From contig NZ_CP035926.1 of NCBI RefSeq assembly GCF_004214815.1, positions 248,001-312,000 on the forward strand: a stretch of 64,000 nucleotides of DNA, in the 5' to 3' direction. Of the stretch, positions 41,949 to 53,471 are shown one piece after another (within the stretch, counting starts at the first letter, position 1; each line of letters begins with the position of its first letter). The DNA comes from Aliarcobacter thereius LMG 24486 (GTDB taxonomy: Bacteria; Campylobacterota; Campylobacteria; Campylobacterales; Arcobacteraceae). The translations under genes were made by a program, and so were the position numbers. The notes beneath the pieces were generated by a model. It did not search any database. It had not been told where the DNA came from and saw only the letters and a program-made list of their open reading frames with translations.

Positions 41949-43510
41949 TATCTCTTCTTTGGTTTTTTATTTAAAAATATGACAGCAGTCGCAGTTGTAA
42001 TAACTAATATTAATGATGGAAATCCTGTTTTATAAAGCATTTCATTACTTGCAAGTTCATATATTCTTACTGCTAAAGTATCAAAATTAAATGGTCTTAA
42101 AATAAGTGTTGCTGGTAACTCTTTTGCAATATCTATATATAAAATTAAAAAACCACTTAGTAAATAAGGTTTTAAAAGTGGTAGATATATTTTAAAAATT
42201 GATTCTTTTGAACTTTTGCAAAAGATTTTAGAAACATCATCAATATTTGAAGGAATTTTACTAAAACCATTTTCAACACTTCCTATACTTGCTGCAAAAT
42301 ATCTTGTAGTATATGCAAAAATAAGAACTATAAATGAACCACCAAAAAACATTATTCCTAAACTTTTATCAACAAAATTTGAAATAATAAGTAAACCAAC
42401 TGCAACAACAGCACCTGGAATCGAATATCCAAGCATTGACAATTTGTGAGTTACATTTGAAATTTTTGTTGGATAAAATCTTAAAAAATAAACTATAACA
42501 AATGCTAACATAACAATAAATGCACTTGAAAATATATTTAGAGTTAATGTATTTAACAAATATTCAAAAGCACTTAAATCAAGTGTAAATATATCTAAAA
42601 AAGTCCAATATATTAAAATAGAACTTGGAATAAATAGTGTAAATGAAGCAATAACAAATGAGATTAAAAATGCTATAAAATTTTGTTTGCCTTTTAAAAC
42701 TATTTTTTCTGCTTTTTGGCTACTATTTGTAGAACTAGAGAATCTGAGTTTTTTTCTAATATTATGCTCAACTAAAAGTATAGAAAATACAAAAATAAGT
42801 AAAACCACTGCTACATTTATAGCTTCAAGTAAATTTTCATATCCATACCAGCTTTTAAATATTCCAACACTAAAAGTCTCTATTCCAAAATATAAAACTG
42901 TTCCATAATCGCTTAGAGTTTCCATAACAGCTAAAATTGCACCAGCAAATAAACTAGGATAAGCCAAAGGTAGATAAACTTTGAAAAAGGCTTTTGTATG
43001 ACTTAAATTTTGTAAAGATACAAGTTCAAAAATTGTTTTAGAAATATTAGAAAAAGATACTCTAGCTAATATATAAACATAAGGAAACATTGCTATTGTA
43101 AATATAAAAATAGCTCCAGACATATTTAAAATATCAAGTTTTAAAGAGTTGTCTGAAAAAACTTGAGATAAAAGTCCACGAAATTCAAAAAAACCAACAT
43201 AAGTATAACCGAAAATATAAGCAGGATAAGCAAGTGGTAAAACAAAACAGATAGAGAAAAAAGTGCTTCCTGTATATTTAAATCTTGCACTTAAATAAGA
43301 TGTAATTGTACCTAAAACTAAAACACCAAGCATTGTTCCAGCTACCAAAATAATGGTATCTAAAGTATAATCATATATATAGTCATTTCTTAAAAAATCA
43401 TCTAAAAAAGAGCTATTTATTAAAAAATAAAAAAGTAATATTAAAATAGGAAAAGATATACAAACTCCAAAAATTGGAGCTATATATCTTTTTAAATTAT
43501 TTATTTCCAT
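41948..43510 (-). CDS. fbpB: Ferric iron ABC transporter, fused permease
   Basis: A 520-residue inner-membrane permease with two tandem permease domains in one chain, typical of FbpB. About twelve membrane segments can be placed. The coupling-helix motifs occur once in each half: LSHTKAFFKVYLPLAYPSLFAGA near residue 167 and SSKESIFKIYLPLLKPYLLSG near residue 417. Its start overlaps fbpA by ten bases and its end touches fbpC, so the three genes are translationally linked. Confidence 0.92.
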   Translation of the reverse strand: MEINNLKRYIAPIFGVCISFPILILLFYFLINSSFLDDFLRNDYIYDYTLDTIILVAGTMLGVLVLGTITSYLSARFKYTGSTFFSICFVLPLAYPAYIFGYTYVGFFEFRGLLSQVFSDNSLKLDILNMSGAIFIFTIAMFPYVYILARVSFSNISKTIFELVSLQNLSHTKAFFKVYLPLAYPSLFAGAILAVMETLSDYGTVLYFGIETFSVGIFKSWYGYENLLEAINVAVVLLIFVFSILLVEHNIRKKLRFSSSTNSSQKAEKIVLKGKQNFIAFLISFVIASFTLFIPSSILIYWTFLDIFTLDLSAFEYLLNTLTLNIFSSAFIVMLAFVIVYFLRFYPTKISNVTHKLSMLGYSIPGAVVAVGLLIISNFVDKSLGIMFFGGSFIVLIFAYTTRYFAASIGSVENGFSKIPSNIDDVSKIFCKSSKESIFKIYLPLLKPYLLSGFLILYIDIAKELPATLILRPFNFDTLAVRIYELASNEMLYKTGFPSLILVITTATAVIFLNKKPKKR

Positions 43511-44508
43511 CTTCCCTTTGTAGCTATTTCAACAGCTTCTTTCGTATATTTTCCAACTTCATTTAAAGGAATTTGATCTTCTTTGAACTCCCCCCAAGAA
43601 GCAACAATTCCAGCTGGTTTTACTTTTGGATTAACTGGATATTCATAATTCCCTTCTGCTAATTCTCCTTGAGCCTCAACACTTGTTAAAAATTCAATTA
43701 GTTTTATAGCATTCTGTTTATTTGGAGAAAACTTTGTAATACTTGCTCCTGAAATATTTATATGAGTTCCAGTTGTATTTTGTGCAGGGAAAAATATTTT
43801 TACCTCTTTTGCAATCTCTTCATCTACTTTATCTTTACTATTTGCCATAACACCAAGATAATAAGAGTTTACAATTGCTAAATCAGCTTCACCACTTGCA
43901 ACTGCTCTTACTTGATCTTTATCTCCACCTTTTGGATTTCTTGCAAAGTTATTTGCTATACCTTTAGTAAATTCTAAAGCTTTTTCTTCTCCATGGTGAG
44001 CGATAATTGAAGCAATTAGAGATTTGTTATATGGATGAGTTGAAGTTCTTGTTACAATTTTTCCTTTAAATTTTGGATTGATTAAAGAAAAATAATCTTC
44101 TAAATCTTTTGGATCAACTGTTTTTGGGTTATAAACTACAATTCTAGCTCTTTTTGTAAGAGCGAACCAAGCACCATCTTCATCTCTTAAGTGAGATGGA
44201 ATATTTTTATTTAAGATATCTGATTTAATATTTTGAACCAAACCTCTTTGTTTTGCTAGATATAAATTTCCTATATCAGCAGTTATTAAAATATCAGCAG
44301 GAGAGTTTGCTCCTTCAATAGATAGTCTAGAAACTAGCTCTTCAGCTTTTGCACTTACAAGATTTACTTTGATTCCTGTTTTAGCTTCAAACTCTTTAAA
44401 AAGTTTTTTATCAGAATCATAATGTCTTTGTGAATAAACATTAACTTCACTTGAAGCAAAAATAACTGATGAGAAAAGAATTGTTAAACTTAATAGTATC
44501 TTTTTCAA
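43501..44508 (-). CDS. fbpA: Ferric iron-binding periplasmic protein
   Basis: A 335-residue periplasmic protein with a signal peptide (MKKILLSLTILFSSVIFASS). It opens with VNVYSQRHYDSD, the typical FbpA/FutA start, and has NSYYLGVMA near residue 217, the paired tyrosines that ligate Fe(III) in this family. It would accept ferric iron freed in the periplasm and hand it to FbpBC. It is the first gene of fbpABC-araC. A Fur-like box lies 79 bases upstream in the gap shared with the divergent glutamine amidotransferase. Confidence 0.93.
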   Translation of the reverse strand: MKKILLSLTILFSSVIFASSEVNVYSQRHYDSDKKLFKEFEAKTGIKVNLVSAKAEELVSRLSIEGANSPADILITADIGNLYLAKQRGLVQNIKSDILNKNIPSHLRDEDGAWFALTKRARIVVYNPKTVDPKDLEDYFSLINPKFKGKIVTRTSTHPYNKSLIASIIAHHGEEKALEFTKGIANNFARNPKGGDKDQVRAVASGEADLAIVNSYYLGVMANSKDKVDEEIAKEVKIFFPAQNTTGTHINISGASITKFSPNKQNAIKLIEFLTSVEAQGELAEGNYEYPVNPKVKPAGIVASWGEFKEDQIPLNEVGKYTKEAVEIATKGRWK

Positions 44509-46485: not shown

Positions 46486-47111
46486 AACGCTCATTTTTAT
46501 TAATAGAAATAGTAGTTGCACTTATATTAGTTTCAATAGTTTATTCACAGTTCTTTTTAAAAAATAGTAATGAAAAGATAGACCTTTTTGTAGAAAAATT
46601 AGAGCTTTATTTAAATTTTTTAAGATATAAAGCTTTAATTGATGATAAAATAGATTTTGAAAATAGATTTTGGCATAAACAAAGATGGAGTATAAAATTT
46701 TTAAGATGTAGAGAAAATGAAGGTGGTGGAATTTATATGTCAATTTATAGCGATAATAATGCTTTAGGACATACAAATTTTGAAGAAGCACTAAAAGATC
46801 CTTTAACAAATAGATTAATCACAAGTTCTAATTTTTGTAAAAATAATCCAAAAAACTCTCCTTTTTCAATTTTAAAAAACTATGATATACAAAATGTTAA
46901 ACTATCTTGTAATAGTACAAGCTCTTTAGGACAGATCTCTTTTGGAGAAAATGGAAGAATTTATTCAAGATTATCAAATTTAGAAGAAGATTATTTTTCT
47001 TATGAAATTACAAAAGTTTGTAAAATGAGTTTTACTACAAAAGAGTCTTATAAAAGAGAGATAGAAATTTATCCCAAAACTGGATATATAAAATTAATTA
47101 AAAGAGATTGA
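46482..47111 (+). CDS. Pseudopilin-like protein
   Basis: A 209-residue protein whose start (MKRSFLLIEIVVALILVSIVYS) has the hydrophobic stretch and Glu five residues into it that define type IV prepilins and pseudopilins. A short basic leader and the usual cleavage context are present in reduced form (the FLLIE segment lacks the Gly often found before the cut). The remainder is soluble with four cysteines (near residues 76, 119, 147, 184). No pilus or secretion genes are next to it. Its ATG overlaps the upstream stop by 4 bases (ATGA). Confidence 0.6.
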   Translation: MKRSFLLIEIVVALILVSIVYSQFFLKNSNEKIDLFVEKLELYLNFLRYKALIDDKIDFENRFWHKQRWSIKFLRCRENEGGGIYMSIYSDNNALGHTNFEEALKDPLTNRLITSSNFCKNNPKNSPFSILKNYDIQNVKLSCNSTSSLGQISFGENGRIYSRLSNLEEDYFSYEITKVCKMSFTTKESYKREIEIYPKTGYIKLIKRD

Positions 47112-47120
47112 TTTAACTCA

Positions 47121-47137
47121 ATGATAATTATAATCAT
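47121..47137 (+). promoter_or_regulatory. Fur-like palindrome heading the NitT/TauT-NnrS operon
   Basis: ATGATAATTATAATCAT lies 41 bases before the permease ATG and overlaps candidate -10 elements (TATAAT at 47129-47134 and 47144-47149). The identical 17-mer in reverse complement occurs at 50963-50979 before the TonB receptor gene. This placement over a promoter fits iron-dependent repression by Fur; a Zur-type site cannot be excluded. Confidence 0.65.
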
Positions 47138-47178
47138 TTTAAATATAATTCAGAAAATATTTAAAATTGGAAAACAAT

Positions 47179-47961
47179 ATGAAACTTTTTTTAAAAATAG
47201 TTAAAGACTTCCCCTCTTATCTTTGGAGTTCTTGGGGTTCTATTGCATCTATATTTTTGTTTTTGGCTTTTTGGGATTTTGGTCATCAAATCTATGGTGA
47301 TTTAATTCTTCCAAGCCCAAAAGATACATTTACTTCATTAATTGCTATTTTGCAAGATCAAAATATGCAAAGTGAAATATTAATAACAATAAAAAGAGCA
47401 TTAATAGGATTTGGAATATCTATTTTAATAGGATCCTTTTTAGGGCTTTTAGCAGGACTTTTTATAACAGCATCAGTTATGAGTAGACCAATAGTTACAA
47501 TTCTTTTTGGTATGCCACCAATTGCATGGATTGTTTTAGCAATGATTTGGTTTGGAATGAGTGATACAACAGTTATTTTCACAGTTTTTATAGCATCTTT
47601 TCCTATTGTTTTTGTTGGAGCTTTAGAAGGAACGAGAACTTTAGAAGGAAAACTAAAAGAGATGGCAGATAGTTTTTATTTACCTTTTTCAATGAAACTT
47701 TTTGACCTATATCTTCCACATATTTTTTCATATATTTTTCCAGCATTTATAAGTGCTTTAGGAATGTCTTGGAAAATAGTTGTTATGGCTGAACTATTAT
47801 CTACAAGTGATGGATTAGGAGCTTCTTTAGCAGTTGCAAGAAGTCAGCTTGAAACTTCAACAGCTTTAGCACTTGTAACAATAATGATTGCAAGTTTATT
47901 GCTTATTGAATATTTGATTTTTGAACCAATAAAAAGGGAGATTGAAGCATGGAGAGATTAG
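47179..47961 (+). CDS. NitT/TauT-type ABC transporter permease
   Basis: A 260-residue permease of the SsuC/TauC/NrtB family. Six hydrophobic segments and the coupling-loop region (EGTRTLEGKLKEMADSFYL, near residues 153-171) are visible, followed by LGMSWKIVVMAELLS, typical of this family. The ATG at 47179 is chosen since GGAAAA lies 7 bases before it; the TTG four codons upstream has no ribosome-binding site. It overlaps the ATPase gene by 13 bases. Known relatives carry sulfonates, nitrate, thiamine precursors or metal chelates. The Fur-like box suggests a metal-related substrate here. Confidence 0.88.
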   Translation: MKLFLKIVKDFPSYLWSSWGSIASIFLFLAFWDFGHQIYGDLILPSPKDTFTSLIAILQDQNMQSEILITIKRALIGFGISILIGSFLGLLAGLFITASVMSRPIVTILFGMPPIAWIVLAMIWFGMSDTTVIFTVFIASFPIVFVGALEGTRTLEGKLKEMADSFYLPFSMKLFDLYLPHIFSYIFPAFISALGMSWKIVVMAELLSTSDGLGASLAVARSQLETSTALALVTIMIASLLLIEYLIFEPIKREIEAWRD

Positions 47962-48689
47962 AAGTAAAAGAGTTAAATTTTTCTTTTGGCTTTAAAGAGA
48001 TATTAAAAGATATAAATTTTAGTTTAGAAAAAGGAGAAGTTGTATCGATAGTTGGACCAAGTGGTGGAGGGAAAACAACACTTCTTCATATTTGTTCTAA
48101 GCTTCTTAAAGTTGATGATGGATTTATTAAAAATAGTTTTAAATCTAGCTCATTTGCTTTTCAAGAACCAAGGCTCCTTCCTTGGAAAAATGTTATTGAT
48201 AATATAGCTTTAGGACTTCGTGCAAAAAATATTTCATATAAAGAGTCAATAAATAGATCAAAGAATATAGCTTTAGAATTTGGATTAGATGAAGAAGATT
48301 TTGAGAAATTTCCAAAAGATTTAAGTGGTGGAATGAAACAAAGAGTATCTTTTGCTAGAGCTTTAGTTGTAAATCCAAGTTTGCTTTTTTTAGATGAACC
48401 ATTTTCAGCTCTTGATATTGGTTTAAAAAAAGAGTTACAAAATCTTCTTATAAAAGAGATAGAAGAAAAAAATTTAACAGTTTTATTTATAACTCATGAT
48501 TTAATGGAAGCAATAAAACTAAGTAATAAAATAATTGTATTAAAAGCAGAACCAGTTGGGCATATTTCAACTATATTTACAATAAATAGACCTAGATTAA
48601 CAAGAGATGATGAATTTGTTTATAATGAAACTGCAAAATTCCTAAAAGATAGAGAAATTATTAGTAGTTTTGAATTGGAGATAAAATGA
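47949..48689 (+). CDS. NitT/TauT-type ABC transporter ATP-binding protein
   Basis: A 246-residue ATPase with Walker A (VGPSGGGKTTLL near residue 36), a Q-loop of the TauB/SsuB form (FQEPRLLPWKNV), signature LSGGMKQRVSFARAL and Walker B (LLFLDEPFSALD). The switch histidine follows in LFITHDLMEA. It starts inside the end of the permease gene (13-base overlap) and overlaps the NnrS gene by four bases, so the three genes are one translational unit. Confidence 0.93.
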   Translation: MERLEVKELNFSFGFKEILKDINFSLEKGEVVSIVGPSGGGKTTLLHICSKLLKVDDGFIKNSFKSSSFAFQEPRLLPWKNVIDNIALGLRAKNISYKESINRSKNIALEFGLDEEDFEKFPKDLSGGMKQRVSFARALVVNPSLLFLDEPFSALDIGLKKELQNLLIKEIEEKNLTVLFITHDLMEAIKLSNKIIVLKAEPVGHISTIFTINRPRLTRDDEFVYNETAKFLKDREIISSFELEIK

Positions 48690-49918
48690 TAGAACAAGAA
48701 AAGCAATATAGCTCAAGACATTACTCTTATTATCCAAAAGGTGAGTTTCCTATATATTTAGCTTATGGATTTAGAGCTATTTTTTTGATTTTAGCACCAT
48801 ATATTGTAATAAATATTATACTTTGGGCATTTTTATTTGCTGGATATATTAATTTACCAATAGATAATATCTTAAATTGGCATATATATGAGATGATTTT
48901 TGGAGTTGGAAGTGCAATGATTGTTGCTTTCTTTCTTACAGGTTTGCCTGAATTGTTTCCATCAACTACTCCAATTGTTGGAAGAAAATTAGCATATATT
49001 ATAATATTGTGGATTTTAGGACGAATATCTTTTTGGTTTATGGATTATTTAGGAGTTTTTATTGTAGCAATTTTAAATATCTCTTTGCTAATTTATATCT
49101 CATATCTTGCGGTCATTCCAGCTTTTAAAGACCCAAACAAAAAGCATATTTCTTTAGTTTATGCAATGGCATTGATTGTTTTCTCACAAATAGCTTTCTT
49201 TTTGAGTGTTGCAGAACTTATAAAAATTGATTCATATAAAATATTACTTCTATCTTTGGTATTTTTCTTAGTACTTATTTTACTCGCTTTAAGACGAGTA
49301 AGTATGGAATCAATAAATCAGCTACTTGAACAAGAAAAGATAGATGATATATTTTTAGCAAAATCTTTTAGATATAACCTTGCTATATTTTGCTTACTTT
49401 TATATGGTTTTGTAGAGTTCTTATTTCCAGAAAATAGTGTTTTAGCTTATATTTCTTTTGCTTGTGGAGCATCTATTTTAGGGATAATAAATGATTTTTT
49501 ATTAAAAGATAATAGAATTATATTTAAGCCTTTTGTGCTATATATTATATCAATTATGATACTTACAGCTCTTGGATTTTTCTTTTTAGGATTTAATTAT
49601 CTTTTTGAACTTGGATTTACAAATCACTTTAGACACTTTTTAACAACAGGAAGTTTTGGAATGGTATTTTATGTAATTATGATAATAGTTTCAACAATAC
49701 ACACAGGAAGAGATATTTTCACAAATTGGGCATTAAACTTAGGACTTTTTTTAATAGTTTTATCAACATTTATAAGAGCATTTATTCCATATTATTATGA
49801 ATATATGATTTTAGCTTATATATTATCTTCAATATTATGGGCTATTCCATTTGTAATATATATGAAAATATTTTTCCCATTTTTATTAAATGTTAGAGTA
49901 GATGGCTTAAAAGGTTAA
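48686..49918 (+). CDS. nnrS: NnrS family haem/copper membrane protein
   Basis: A 410-residue membrane protein with about twelve hydrophobic segments. Family signatures are WHIYEMIFGVGSAMIVAFFL near residue 66, the LTGLPE region after it, and HFRHFLTTGSFGMVFYVIM and HTGRDIF near residues 312-345. NnrS proteins bind haem and copper and have been tied to nitric-oxide resistance. Here it is embedded between ABC transporter genes (4-base overlap with the ATPase) and under a Fur-like box. That points to a role linked to metal supply. The conserved HxHEM is WHIYEM here, with one histidine replaced. Confidence 0.85.
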   Translation: MIEQEKQYSSRHYSYYPKGEFPIYLAYGFRAIFLILAPYIVINIILWAFLFAGYINLPIDNILNWHIYEMIFGVGSAMIVAFFLTGLPELFPSTTPIVGRKLAYIIILWILGRISFWFMDYLGVFIVAILNISLLIYISYLAVIPAFKDPNKKHISLVYAMALIVFSQIAFFLSVAELIKIDSYKILLLSLVFFLVLILLALRRVSMESINQLLEQEKIDDIFLAKSFRYNLAIFCLLLYGFVEFLFPENSVLAYISFACGASILGIINDFLLKDNRIIFKPFVLYIISIMILTALGFFFLGFNYLFELGFTNHFRHFLTTGSFGMVFYVIMIIVSTIHTGRDIFTNWALNLGLFLIVLSTFIRAFIPYYYEYMILAYILSSILWAIPFVIYMKIFFPFLLNVRVDGLKG

Positions 49919-49937
49919 ATTAAACAAAGGATAGTAG

Positions 49938-50906
49938 ATGAAATATTTTTTATTAATAATATTATTTTGTGCAAATGTTTTTGCAAAAGATGAAAGCAAA
50001 ATTATAATAGCTGGACCAATAGCAAGTGTTTCACACCCAATTTTACATATGGTTCAAGAAAATGTTTTAAAAGAGTTTGGAAAAGAGTTAGAGTTTAAAC
50101 TATGGAATAATCCAGATGAATTAAGAGCAATAATTCTAAAAAAAGAGGCTGATTTTATAGCACTTCCTACAAATGTTGCGGCAAATTTGTACAATAAAGG
50201 AGTAGATTTAAAGTTATTATCTGTTTCTATTTGGGGAATTTTAGAACTGCTTAGTAGAGATAAAAACTTAAAAACAATAGAAGATTTTAAAAATAAAGAG
50301 ATAATCGTACCTTTTAGAGCTGATATGCCTGATATTATTCTTCAAGCTTTGATAAGAAAAGCTGGTTTTGATCCAAAAAAAGATTTTAAATTAAAATATC
50401 TAGCTACTCCTGTTGATGCTATGCAAATGATGATATTAAGAAGAGCAGAACATGTTTTATTAGCAGAACCTGCTGTATCAATAGCTTTGAGAAAATCAAT
50501 TTCTTTCCCTGTAAAAATTCTTGCACCTGATATTTTTAGAAGTATAAATCTTCAAGAAGAGTGGGGAAGACTATATAATATTGAATCAAAAATACCACAA
50601 GCTGGATTAGCATATATTGGAGATACAAAAGGGAAAGAAGAACTTATAAATAAAGTTCTAAAAGAGTATGAAAAAGCCATTTATTGGTATAAAACAAATA
50701 AAAAAGATGCAAGTTTACTTGTATCAAAAAGATTAACAATGCTAGATAAAGATGGATTAGAAGATTCAATAGATTTTGTAAGATTTGAATATATAGATTC
50801 TGAAAATAGTAAAAATGATTTGGAGTTCTTTTTTAAAGTATTATTAGAAAATGATCCAAAGCTTATTGGTGGAAAGTTGCCAGATGAAGGTTTTTACTAT
50901 AAATAG
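49938..50906 (+). CDS. NitT/TauT-type periplasmic substrate-binding protein
   Basis: A 322-residue secreted binding protein (signal peptide MKYFLLIILFCANVFA). The two-lobe pattern is like SsuA/NrtA/ThiY-type proteins: IAGPIASVSHPILHM at the start, ADFIALPTNVAANLYNKG near residue 75, IEDFKNKEIIVPFRADMP near 113 and AEHVLLAEPAVSIAL near 172. Ligand-contact residues cannot be inferred by eye. It follows nnrS by 19 bases with AAAGGAT before its ATG. It should deliver the ligand to the permease encoded upstream. Confidence 0.85.
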   Translation: MKYFLLIILFCANVFAKDESKIIIAGPIASVSHPILHMVQENVLKEFGKELEFKLWNNPDELRAIILKKEADFIALPTNVAANLYNKGVDLKLLSVSIWGILELLSRDKNLKTIEDFKNKEIIVPFRADMPDIILQALIRKAGFDPKKDFKLKYLATPVDAMQMMILRRAEHVLLAEPAVSIALRKSISFPVKILAPDIFRSINLQEEWGRLYNIESKIPQAGLAYIGDTKGKEELINKVLKEYEKAIYWYKTNKKDASLLVSKRLTMLDKDGLEDSIDFVRFEYIDSENSKNDLEFFFKVLLENDPKLIGGKLPDEGFYYK

Positions 50907-50918
50907 ATAATTTTTTTT

Positions 50919-50946
50919 AATAGTATTGATATAAGTCAATACTATT
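50919..50946. promoter_or_regulatory. 11-bp dyad containing an FNR/CRP-like site before the TonB receptor
   Basis: AATAGTATTGA and TCAATACTATT pair perfectly around TATAAG. The centre TTGATATAAGTCAA (50926-50939) is one base off the FNR consensus and matches the petABC dyad at 13 of 14 bases. It is also hairpin-forming 13 bases past the binding-protein stop and could act as a terminator, though only a weak U-rich tract (ATCTTTTATA) follows. Both uses are possible. Confidence 0.45.
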
Positions 50947-50962
50947 ATCTTTTATATATATT

Positions 50963-50979
50963 ATGATTATAATTATCAT
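50963..50979 (+). promoter_or_regulatory. Fur-like palindrome before the second TonB receptor
   Basis: ATGATTATAATTATCAT is the exact reverse complement of the site at 47121-47137. It lies 18 bases before the TTG start and directly upstream of AAAGGAAG, overlapping the likely promoter, and is probably bound by the same regulator. Confidence 0.65.
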
Positions 50980-50997
50980 TTTTATAAAGGAAGAAAA

Positions 50998-53061
50998 TTG
51001 AAAAAAAGAATCATAGTTTCTGTTATTGCATCAATCTTAATACAAAATCTAAGTGCAAATGATACAAAAATAGAAGAGGTTAAAATCACAACTGCAACAA
51101 AAACTGAAAAAAATATAGATGGTGTTAGTGCATCTGTTATAGTAATTACAAAAGAAGATATTGAAAAGATATCTGCTTCAAATCTAAAAGATATTTTAGA
51201 TAAAGTCCCATCAATAAATTCACAATTTGGAAGATTCCCACATCCTAGCTCTGTATCAAAATCTGCTATATCTATTCGTGGAGTTGGAGTAAATGGAACT
51301 TTGATTTTATTAGATGGAAAAAGATTAAGTGGTGAAACAGAATCTCCATATGAAATGACAAGAATACCAGCTTCTATGATTGAAAGAATAGAAATAGTAA
51401 AAGGTTCTATGAGTACACTTTATGGAAGTGATGCTATTGGTGGAGTAATAAATATAATTACAAAAAAAGATTCAGAAGATATAAATCAAACTACTTTAGA
51501 TATGAAATATGGCTCAAATGCTTATAATGAAGCTAGAGAAAAAAATATAAATCTTTTAACTTTGGGAAATATAAATGGATTTAAATATAAAGCTTTTGCT
51601 TCAAGTATTGAAACATCTTCATATAAAAAAGATAAAAAATATACTCAAAAAGCTATAAATCCACAAAATGGAACACCTATTCAAACTCATCCACAAAACG
51701 GTAAGAGTGGAGTTTTGGCTACTACTTATGGAGATGAATCGACAATAAATAGTTTTGGACTTGGACTTGAGAAAAATCTTAAAGATAATCTTACATTTGG
51801 AATAGATTTAAACTATTTTAAAGAAGATAGAAGTGGAAAATACTTAGGTGGCTCACAAGCAAATGGTATCTCTGGAATGGTTTTAAATACTCCTGTTGAG
51901 TCTAAAGATGATAATAGAAGAGTTGATTTTCAAGCATTTGCAAAATATAATTTTAGTGATGAATTATCTACAAATTTAAGATATTATGAATCATATTATA
52001 AGAAACGAAATGAAACAAAACCAATAAACTTTGCAGGACCTATAAATAAAAAATTTAGTGCAAATGTAAAAATTGAAGATGTAGAATCAACTACAACTTA
52101 TGCTTTAAATAATGCAAATTTATTTACTTTTGGTTTAAATTATAGAAAAGAGACAAGAGATAGTGCAGCAATAAATCCAAATCCACAATCAAGCGAATTT
52201 ATTGAAAAGGTTATAGAGTACAAATCTATATATTTACAAGATGAAATAGAGTTAAATGATAGTTTAAATGCAACAATTGGGGCAAGATATGATGATATTT
52301 CAAATGCAGATAGTAAAACTACATTTCAAGCAGGACTTGTACAAAAACTAGGTGAAAATACAAGAGTAAGAGCAAATTATGCAAGTGGATATAGAGCACC
52401 TGATGTAGCAGAGCTTTATGTTGTTGCACCACTATTTAAAGATGGAAAAAGATATGGAGCTGGGGTTATGAATAATTTTAAAACAAGCTCTTATGATTTA
52501 AAACCAGAAAAATCAGATACATTTGAAATAGCACTTGCAAATAATTTTAATAACTTTAATTCTGAAATAGTATTATTTAAAACAGTAGTAAAAGATAAAA
52601 TTGAAATAGTATCTTATGGTGCAGGAGCAGGTAAATATTATACTTCTGAGAATTTAGAGAAAGTAAATATTAATGGTGTTGAAGTAAATTTAGATTATAA
52701 ATTTAATAATACTTTTGATACTTCTCTTAACTTTACTTATCTTGATACAGAAGATAAAAGTACAAATAAAGAGCTAGTGTATACTCCAAATTTATCAGCA
52801 AGTTTAAATTTAAACTACAAGGTTTTAGATAATTTATCTTCAAATATTATTCTAAGATATATTGGAAAACAGTATGATGATAAAGAAAACAAAGAGAAAT
52901 TAGATGATTATATGATAGTTGATTTAGCTTTAAATTATGAGATAAATAAAATATTTACACTTTATGGTGGAATTGATAATATATTCAACAAAAAAGTTGA
53001 TGAAAGAGTTGATGTAAATGTAGGTTCATATTATTTTGCTGGTATTAAAGCAAAATTCTAA
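50998..53061 (+). CDS. TonB-dependent outer-membrane receptor (CirA/FepA-like)
   Basis: A 687-residue receptor starting at TTG with AAGGAAG upstream. Signal peptide (about residues 1-21), TonB-box-like IEEVKITTATKTE, plug domain (SASNLKDILDKVPSIN, SIRGVGVNGTLILLDGKR, IERIEIVKGSMSTLYGSDAIGGVINIIT) and a barrel ending GIKAKF can all be traced. The plug is of the catecholate/vitamin-type CirA/FepA group. It is preceded by the Fur-like box and dyad and sits just behind the periplasmic binding protein gene. ExbB, ExbD and TonB are not encoded in the window. Confidence 0.93.
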   Translation: MKKRIIVSVIASILIQNLSANDTKIEEVKITTATKTEKNIDGVSASVIVITKEDIEKISASNLKDILDKVPSINSQFGRFPHPSSVSKSAISIRGVGVNGTLILLDGKRLSGETESPYEMTRIPASMIERIEIVKGSMSTLYGSDAIGGVINIITKKDSEDINQTTLDMKYGSNAYNEAREKNINLLTLGNINGFKYKAFASSIETSSYKKDKKYTQKAINPQNGTPIQTHPQNGKSGVLATTYGDESTINSFGLGLEKNLKDNLTFGIDLNYFKEDRSGKYLGGSQANGISGMVLNTPVESKDDNRRVDFQAFAKYNFSDELSTNLRYYESYYKKRNETKPINFAGPINKKFSANVKIEDVESTTTYALNNANLFTFGLNYRKETRDSAAINPNPQSSEFIEKVIEYKSIYLQDEIELNDSLNATIGARYDDISNADSKTTFQAGLVQKLGENTRVRANYASGYRAPDVAELYVVAPLFKDGKRYGAGVMNNFKTSSYDLKPEKSDTFEIALANNFNNFNSEIVLFKTVVKDKIEIVSYGAGAGKYYTSENLEKVNINGVEVNLDYKFNNTFDTSLNFTYLDTEDKSTNKELVYTPNLSASLNLNYKVLDNLSSNIILRYIGKQYDDKENKEKLDDYMIVDLALNYEINKIFTLYGGIDNIFNKKVDERVDVNVGSYYFAGIKAKF

Positions 53062-53069
53062 GGTTTTAT

Positions 53070-53471
53070 ATGTATGAATTTATAAAAACTATACATTTGC
53101 TTACAGTTATTTTATTTGTAGGAACAGTGTTTTTTAGAACTTTTGTTTTGTTTAAATTAAATAAATATTTTGAAAGTAAGCAGAGTTTAAATATACAAAA
53201 GATTTTAGGGAAAGAAGCACGAAGAATTATTGGAATCAACAATATAATATTGATTCTAACTGGATTTTATCTATTTTATACATTTTATTTACAAAGTGCT
53301 TCAATAGTTTTAAAGTCTAAAATGATTTTAGGATTAATTTTAGTAATTATTTTTTATATGCTTCCAAAAATATTGGAAAAAATTGGTGCAAATTTAAGAG
53401 TTTCTCTATCTTTACACTATATATATTTTTTATTATTAATTTTAGTAATTATATTTTCACAATATATCTAA
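53070..53471 (+). CDS. Small CopD/HemJ-like membrane protein
   Basis: A 133-residue protein with four hydrophobic segments (about residues 5-27, 52-70, 80-98 and 112-131). It opens with MYEFIKTIHLLTVILFVG, close in form to CopD-domain and HemJ proteins, in which the first-helix His can ligate haem or copper. A second His lies in SLHYIYF near residue 117. It starts 8 bases after the receptor stop, so it is the last gene of the TonB receptor operon. The function is not established. Confidence 0.6.
   Translation: MYEFIKTIHLLTVILFVGTVFFRTFVLFKLNKYFESKQSLNIQKILGKEARRIIGINNIILILTGFYLFYTFYLQSASIVLKSKMILGLILVIIFYMLPKILEKIGANLRVSLSLHYIYFLLLILVIIFSQYI

Follow-up and report, generated by a model that had tools for sequence, protein, structure and literature searches.

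NnrS is a membrane protein of the nitric oxide (NO) regulon without a settled function, and it is described as a regular member of that regulon under FNR-like factors (PMC1274295). TonB-dependent import of pyrroloquinoline quinone (PQQ) has been described in Escherichia coli (PMC12124388). We analysed a window of 64,000 nucleotides from Aliarcobacter thereius LMG 24486 (NZ_CP035926.1, positions 248,001 to 312,000), in which six plus-strand genes at 47179-53471 join an NnrS protein to an ATP-binding cassette (ABC) importer of the NitT/TauT type, a TonB-dependent receptor and a small membrane protein. An earlier note, made from the sequence alone, had read these genes as a metal-chelate uptake system in two units under Fur-like boxes; our results support its view of an uptake system with Fur-type boxes and take it further. 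The six-gene system is widespread and apparently undescribed: no description of NnrS with this transporter and receptor was present among the literature matches listed, which is weak evidence given their partial coverage.

The permease and ATPase found their best matches (NCBIfam) in NitT/TauT-type importer families, the group of SsuABC, TauABC, NrtABC and ThiXYZ, and the binding protein has the predicted fold of SsuA. Unlike those systems, the importer is linked to NnrS, a TonB receptor and Fur- and FNR-type boxes, and every NCBIfam match shown falls short of the equivalog cut-offs for importers of known substrate. The PqqU/PqqT route likewise combines a TonB receptor with a binding protein of the same fold, but the genome studied here is without the PQQ enzyme family (PF01011), and we know of no NnrS or Fur-type control of that route. 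The receptor is by sequence closest to CirA of the CirA/FepA catecholate receptors, yet it lies under all curated cut-offs shown and its partner ABC genes are not of the FepBDGC kind. The NnrS of the run, hereafter cassette NnrS, shares PF05940, His66, His317, His339 and FNR-type boxes with NO-regulon NnrS and differs from it in forming separate clades, in carrying Phe or Met in place of His29, in lying within the operon and in having a Fur-type box. With CcoN and NorB it shares a predicted 12-helix fold and His residues near the starts of helices 2 and 10, whereas detectable sequence similarity and a CuB site are lacking.

Conservation and spread of the cassette

The binding protein was searched for in 298 Campylobacterota genomes and matched in 69 of them at E ≤ 1e-3; NnrS matched in 117 of the 298. 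When the strong binding-protein hits were considered (E < 1e-20, with 5 of 76 rows above that value excluded), NnrS was encoded less than 5 kb from the binding-protein gene at 64 of 71 hits, in 64 of 66 genomes. Co-occurrence of nnrS with the transporter outside this strain, which the earlier note had named beforehand as its refutation test, is thus present. The embedding of NnrS in an uptake operon also recurred across 40 fetched loci and 80 named loci (those ranking highest among 529 related places), the recurrent run being binding protein, permease, ATPase and NnrS. The binding-protein gene stands last in the window's genus and its near kin and first in most others; at some loci it has no adjoining ABC genes (e.g., L088, L095, L101, L126, L130, L133, L138, L144 and L150). 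By this comparison the gene set is a well-supported conserved module. In a tree of 58 NnrS proteins, cassette clade 1 (26 proteins), cassette clade 2 (12) and the non-cassette copies (20) were each split off by a supported branch.

The TonB receptor and the small His-containing membrane protein proved to be recurrent partners as well. Among the 120 loci, in which some contigs are present twice (e.g., L033 and L073), TonB-receptor-family genes, clade-2 barrels included, lay near the run in 44 and Fur-family genes in 6, and relatives of the small protein occurred in 8 others, as well as on the Arcobacter cloacae plasmid pACLO. In other lineages the partner is a porin of about 320 amino acids, absent from the earlier note, which was near the run in 25 of the 120 loci; two such porins were scanned and belong to PF13557. 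Three strains of the window's genus (L033-L035) have no receptor adjoining the run. That a small porin can take the receptor's place suggests that the cargo is itself small.

Sequence matches further point to a spread across phyla that the earlier note did not contain. The protein search returned 64 plasmid records, of which 24 were opened, picked for genus spread and including 21 from outside Campylobacterota. The annotation places NnrS in the run in 15 of the 24 (12 of the 21 non-Campylobacterota records); eight had no NnrS in the run, one of these being unannotated, and one further record has an unnamed open reading frame (ORF) in the NnrS place. A TonB receptor lay at most four genes away in 11 records (9 of the 21), and a Crp/Fnr gene was nearby in 7 of the 24. 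The run is present on alphaproteobacterial plasmids, often adjoining denitrification genes: in Agrobacterium tumefaciens the order is TonB receptor, binding protein, permease, ATPase, NnrS and then napEFDA. On pACLO the run is accompanied by a divergent Crp/Fnr gene, and in Bartonella it adjoins an iron ABC transporter. In the phylum of a Thiomargarita record, 10 of 398 genomes matched at E ≤ 1e-15, a count that includes the Thiomargarita record, which may contain foreign contigs.

Several loci drew attention in their own right. In a record of Neisseria gonorrhoeae, a relative of the binding protein (L261:8001-8795) is preceded by barrel-like ORFs and followed by permease and ATPase genes, with an NnrS-like ORF further on. 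Upstream of one clade-2 cassette, two small genes read like moaE and moaD (L062:12084-12741), a possible molybdenum link. L090, L092, L135 and other records of metagenome-assembled genomes hold environmental-type Campylobacterota cassettes, and their titles (Helicobacter pylori, Desulfosporosinus, Helicobacter cetorum) seem doubtful.

Two box types at the cassette promoters

With at most 2 mismatches allowed, the Fur-type box TGATAATNATTATCA, which is of the 7-1-7 form, preceded 93 of 147 cassette heads; control heads from these loci had it in 37 of 466 cases and shuffled cassette upstreams in 36 of 2,940. A CRP/FNR-type box (TTGAY-N4-RTCAA, at most 1 mismatch) was found upstream of 62 of 138 cassette heads and 31 of 476 controls, a slightly different head set from that of the Fur-type counts. 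The two boxes stood together at 44 of the 138 cassette heads versus 3 of the 476 controls; in all box and composite counts identical upstream stretches were entered once. At clade-1 heads with both boxes, the Fur-type box started exactly 14 bases past the start of the FNR-type box in 30 of 42 cases. The resulting 29-bp composite (at most 1 and at most 3 mismatches) was upstream of 39 cassette genes versus 1 of 1,301 other ORFs, and that lone ORF, in L100, seems to be a small gene immediately before the binding protein. The composite consensus of relatives continues, after a constant interval, with a TAnnAT element, which would place the FNR-type box at -41.5. The conservation of the boxes is well supported by these comparisons, and regulators of the Fur and CRP/FNR types may act on them.

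Counted per locus, the Fur-type box was present in 71 of 83 clade-1 loci and in 2 of 13 clade-2 loci, the corresponding figures for the FNR-type box being 47 of 83 and 10 of 13. Upstream of the non-cassette NnrS genes, the Fur-type box (at most 2 mismatches) was found in 0 of 20 and the FNR-type box in 12 of 20; 21 such regions were read, one of which (L199) gave no ORF, and the second NnrS of the window's own genome was among these controls. The FNR-type box is therefore common to all groups, and the Fur-type box belongs mainly to clade 1. The FNR-type boxes at non-cassette copies fit the NO-regulon role described for NnrS (PMC1274295). Outside Campylobacterota, only L251 among the loci scanned had an FNR-type box upstream of the binding-protein gene, six loci in which the screen missed the binding protein being skipped. 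NssR-type boxes, which have the form TTAAC-N4-GTTAA, were uncommon (9 of 129 clade-1, 0 of 17 clade-2 and 15 of 554 control heads). In some relatives a gene for a Crp/Fnr-type regulator is next to the run. At L057:5559-5987 and L144:6643-7059 there are regulator genes of the Fur family (PF01475), with cassette or porin genes as neighbours.

Within the window, the earlier note had reported one palindrome of Fur form at the starts of both units. The two copies share 17 identical bases, at 47121-47137 on the plus strand and 50963-50979 on the minus strand, and are the only exact copies in the genome, a single contig of 1.915 Mb; the Fur form is backed by the comparison of cassette heads. Single-genome statistics are modest: at most 2 mismatches gave 9 genome sites versus 7 for a control pattern, and at least two matches to the 20-mer occurred in 4 of 100 window shuffles. 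A third palindrome copy, at genome position 1,288,612, falls in the final part of an ORF that reads like ruvB and was regarded as a chance match. The feoAB promoter of the same genome bears TAATAATCATTATTA, which we take to be the form expected of Fur sites.

CRP/FNR-type boxes are predicted beside the Fur-type boxes at both window promoters, an element new relative to the earlier note. At unit 1, the predicted CRP/FNR-type box TTGATTTAACTCAA (47108-47121, plus strand; 1 mismatch to the consensus) directly abuts the predicted Fur-type box TGATAATTATAATCA (47122-47136, plus; 1 mismatch to the consensus above), as it does in relatives; both box types and the 14-base spacing of this unit were borne out by the sequence comparison. 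The predicted -10 element TATAAT (47144-47149, plus), also returned by the promoter scan, is spaced from the FNR-type box just as the TAnnAT consensus is in relatives, which puts the centre of the box 41.5 bases upstream of the predicted transcription start. The 29-bp composite (47108-47136) is unique in its genome at 3 or fewer mismatches.

At unit 2, the predicted CRP/FNR-type box TTGATATAAGTCAA (50926-50939, plus) has 0 mismatches and the predicted -10 element TATGAT (50962-50967, plus) lies at the same distance from it as in unit 1; this hexamer pair was not in the promoter scan list, the scan total of 43 being not above shuffles (46.6). The predicted Fur-type box TGATTATAATTATCA (50964-50978, plus; 1 mismatch) overlies the -10 element; its start is offset by 38 bases from that of the FNR-type box, an arrangement met once among relatives. 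The FNR-type box is contained in a hairpin-capable 30-base palindrome between the units (50918-50947, plus; -13.3 kcal/mol, z -3.2, 1 of 200 shuffles folding as well). This hairpin, first taken for a terminator, may be an extended FNR-type box, and both may hold; the terminator scan gave no terminator-like site at 50918-50947.

Proteins encoded by the two units

All six ORFs were present where the earlier note had placed them, including the overlaps of 13 and 4 bases that connect the first three genes. Cassette NnrS (410 amino acids; 48686-49918, plus) scored 230.8 bits with PF05940 (cut-off 28), and its gene overlaps the ATPase gene by 4 bases. In an alignment of 119 rows (87 clade-1, 12 clade-2 and 20 non-cassette), His339 was present in all 119, and His66 and His317 in all 87 clade-1 and 20 non-cassette rows and in 11 of the 12 clade-2 rows. 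Position 29, at the start of helix 1, was Phe in 87 of 87 clade-1 rows, Met in 12 of 12 clade-2 rows and His in 20 of 20 non-cassette rows.

The structure model of cassette NnrS (predicted local distance difference test, pLDDT, 88.5) has twelve long helices and superposed on CcoN with Z 29.0 and a root-mean-square deviation of 3.5 over 375 residues, and on NorB with Z 28.6. In CcoN the low-spin haem ligands are His residues near the starts of helices 2 and 10. His66 and His317 mark the starts of helices 2 and 10 in cassette NnrS and lie on the same membrane side by topology, so that, by analogy with CcoN, the pair could bind a single low-spin haem facing the periplasm. His339 comes after helix 10, at the opposite membrane side. 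Helices 6-7 (positions 183-246) hold no conserved His, and therefore a CuB site would be lacking. Cassette NnrS is thus predicted from its model to have the fold of haem-copper-oxidase subunit I without the CuB histidines. Other searches weigh against this kinship: Foldseek returned no match to the model at E ≤ 1e-3 (best 1.2e-3), no NnrS-CcoN sequence similarity was found (hhalign probability 0.2-0.3%), and the domain scan of NnrS at E ≤ 1e-3 gave PF05940 alone, without PF00115.

The importer consists of a NitT/TauT-type permease of 260 amino acids (47179-47961, plus; PF00528, BPD_transp_1, 44.3 bits, cut-off 26.4), an ATPase of 246 amino acids (47949-48689, plus; PF00005, ABC_tran, 91 bits), whose gene overlaps that of the permease by 13 bases, and a periplasmic binding protein of 322 amino acids (49938-50906, plus). 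The binding protein matched no family in the Pfam scan and the SsuA family only weakly (29 bits, cut-off 163.5). Its model (pLDDT 92) was nearest to 3hn0 of Parabacteroides (Z 32.4), PqqT with PQQ (Z 27.7) and SsuA (Z 26.8); the inputs of the two structure models were 42 and 40 sequences. Trp56, Asp60, Asn79, Asp129, Asp132, Tyr154 and Pro178 are invariant across both binding-protein clades. Met130 is nearly invariant, at 90% or more, and no Cys or His reaches 90% across the two clades. The 42 clade-1 binding-protein sequences have invariant His33, Met130 and Met162.

The CirA-like TonB-dependent receptor (687 amino acids; 50998-53061, plus) begins with a TTG codon preceded by AAGGAAG, and its plug and barrel domains scored above the Pfam cut-offs. 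Its nearest solved relative was CirA 2hdf (E 2.8e-40). It stayed below the cut-offs of TIGR01785 for haem (205 bits, cut-off 317) and TIGR01778 for OprC/NosA copper receptors (52.2 bits, cut-off 472). In an alignment of 23 window-type receptors, picked by length and identity, Met137 was conserved and no His or Cys reached 90%, which argues against haem and weakly against copper. Three clade-2 (Campylobacteraceae-type) barrels were nearest to the same TonB-copper model, at 180-187 bits, and Pfam found no plug domain in them. In these barrels (L059:6874-8763, L061:6896-8749 and L066:6765-8621) the TIGR01778 match begins at model position 135, and they are possibly plugless. At L066:8654-11692 a second binding-protein paralogue and a similar barrel precede a FepB-like binding protein and a FecCD-like permease, which is not the usual permease.

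The small membrane protein (133 amino acids; 53070-53471, plus) had been labelled CopD/HemJ-like. Its description as a His-containing membrane protein stood, His9 and His116 being invariant in an alignment across 9 relatives; membership in the HemJ family did not, and since the UPF0093/HemJ score (PF03653) of 20.0 bits is below the gathering score of 34.2, the label denotes resemblance only.

Cargo, proposed mechanism and rival readings

We propose, with a confidence that stands about midway, that the cassette is a conserved system that takes up a small iron chelate when iron is low and, in addition, oxygen is low or NO is present, NnrS serving as its partner in haem redox chemistry or in dealing with NO. 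The TonB-dependent receptor, or the small porin in other lineages, would let a small metal chelate into the periplasm, in the likeliest case a complex of iron; the NitT/TauT-type binding protein, permease and ATPase would then move the chelate, or its carrier, across the inner membrane. Cassette NnrS, beside the importer, may act as a haem redox partner that reduces or frees iron at the periplasmic face, or may remove NO from the site, and the small two-His membrane protein may hand on electrons. The promoters of both units would work in the same way, with an activator box of the CRP/FNR type centred at -41.5 and the core promoter covered by a Fur-type box, and expression would accordingly require low oxygen or NO plus low iron.

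That the cargo is a small iron chelate we hold with moderate confidence; the Fur-type boxes, the CirA-like receptor and some neighbouring genes speak for it. The earlier note had guessed at a catecholate or another metal chelate. Iron-related genes were seen near the run at few of the 120 loci (FeoB 5, FeoA 4, ferritin 6, imelysin 7, Fur family 7 and TonB 2), counts for which the families of example proteins were checked and which have no background comparison. P19-type FtsX genes lie beside the run in L060, L069 and L088, with FtrD/FtsX genes by L060; the P19-type count leaves out the FtsX matches of L037 and L080, which have 23% identity. Several observations pull the other way. Most of the 120 loci have no iron gene beside the run, and in the opened plasmid records denitrification or NO genes (nor, nap, nnrU, hcp, pseudoazurin) were nearby as frequently (7 of 24) as iron or haem genes (5 of 24). 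The Fur-type box is scarce in clade 2, TGA-N9-TCA palindromes are also recognised by other regulators, and the related loci are not independent, so that p-values computed on the box counts overstate the case. To these are added the hints of copper considered next.

Copper was initially favoured on the strength of the clade-2 barrels. In this reading a copper complex would be imported to supply denitrification and enzymes of the cbb3 type, and the copper would be used or sensed by NnrS, which has been described as a haem-copper protein. The best match of those barrels to the TonB-copper model, a NosL domain in the gene following the binding protein in L088, pseudoazurin ahead of the run in Martelella and the position of the run within denitrification islands all fit this reading. 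However, neither the clade-2 barrels nor the window receptor reaches the TIGR01778 cut-off, no Cys or His is conserved in the window-type receptors or at 90% in both binding-protein clades, and the Fur-type box marks 71 of 83 clade-1 loci. Copper was ranked lower because of this Fur-type footprint and the iron neighbours, and we judge it unlikely; the nearly invariant Met130, and the invariant His33, Met130 and Met162 of clade 1, keep it as a rival. Somewhat improbable, too, is that NnrS serves only in NO protection, shielding the transporter or the cell while the importer meets an unrelated anaerobic need and common FNR-type control accounts for their linkage. NnrS is regular in NO regulons (PMC1274295), its FNR-type box recurs at 12 of 20 non-cassette copies, and NO or denitrification genes neighbour the run on 7 of the 24 plasmids opened. 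Cassette NnrS, by contrast, forms its own clades without the His29 found in 20 of 20 other copies, has been kept with the importer across clades and phyla, and has a cassette-specific Fur-type box (0 of 20 other copies). An organic cofactor or precursor as cargo, PQQ-like or another small aromatic acid rather than a metal chelate, seems distinctly doubtful. TonB-dependent PQQ import in E. coli offers a precedent (PMC12124388), and the binding-protein model comes near PqqT with PQQ; SsuA is equally close, however, so that the PqqT match is a match to the fold, and the absence of PF01011 from the genome and the metal indicated by the Fur-type boxes speak against it.

A bolder form of the iron-chelate reading is possible but rather unlikely. 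In it, cassette NnrS, derived from haem-copper oxidases, would be a dedicated membrane reductase freeing chelate iron, and the 29-bp FNR/Fur operator would be an AND-NOT gate, switched on by low oxygen or NO only where iron is also in short supply, in a module spread in Campylobacterota, Alphaproteobacteria and others, partly on plasmids. The oxidase-like predicted fold without CuB makes cassette NnrS a candidate for such a reductase, and the conserved operon offers a concrete role for one branch of the family. The predicted composite operator and the apparent cross-phylum spread are new; the operator provides a compact signature for finding such modules and would exemplify a promoter that integrates two global signals. 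Should the cargo be iron, the importer would come from a transporter type seldom tied to siderophores, of relevance to denitrifying, vent and gut bacteria.

Three kilobases upstream of the run, the minus strand (43501-44508) encodes another periplasmic binding protein, which reached no curated equivalog and matched PF13416 and related families.

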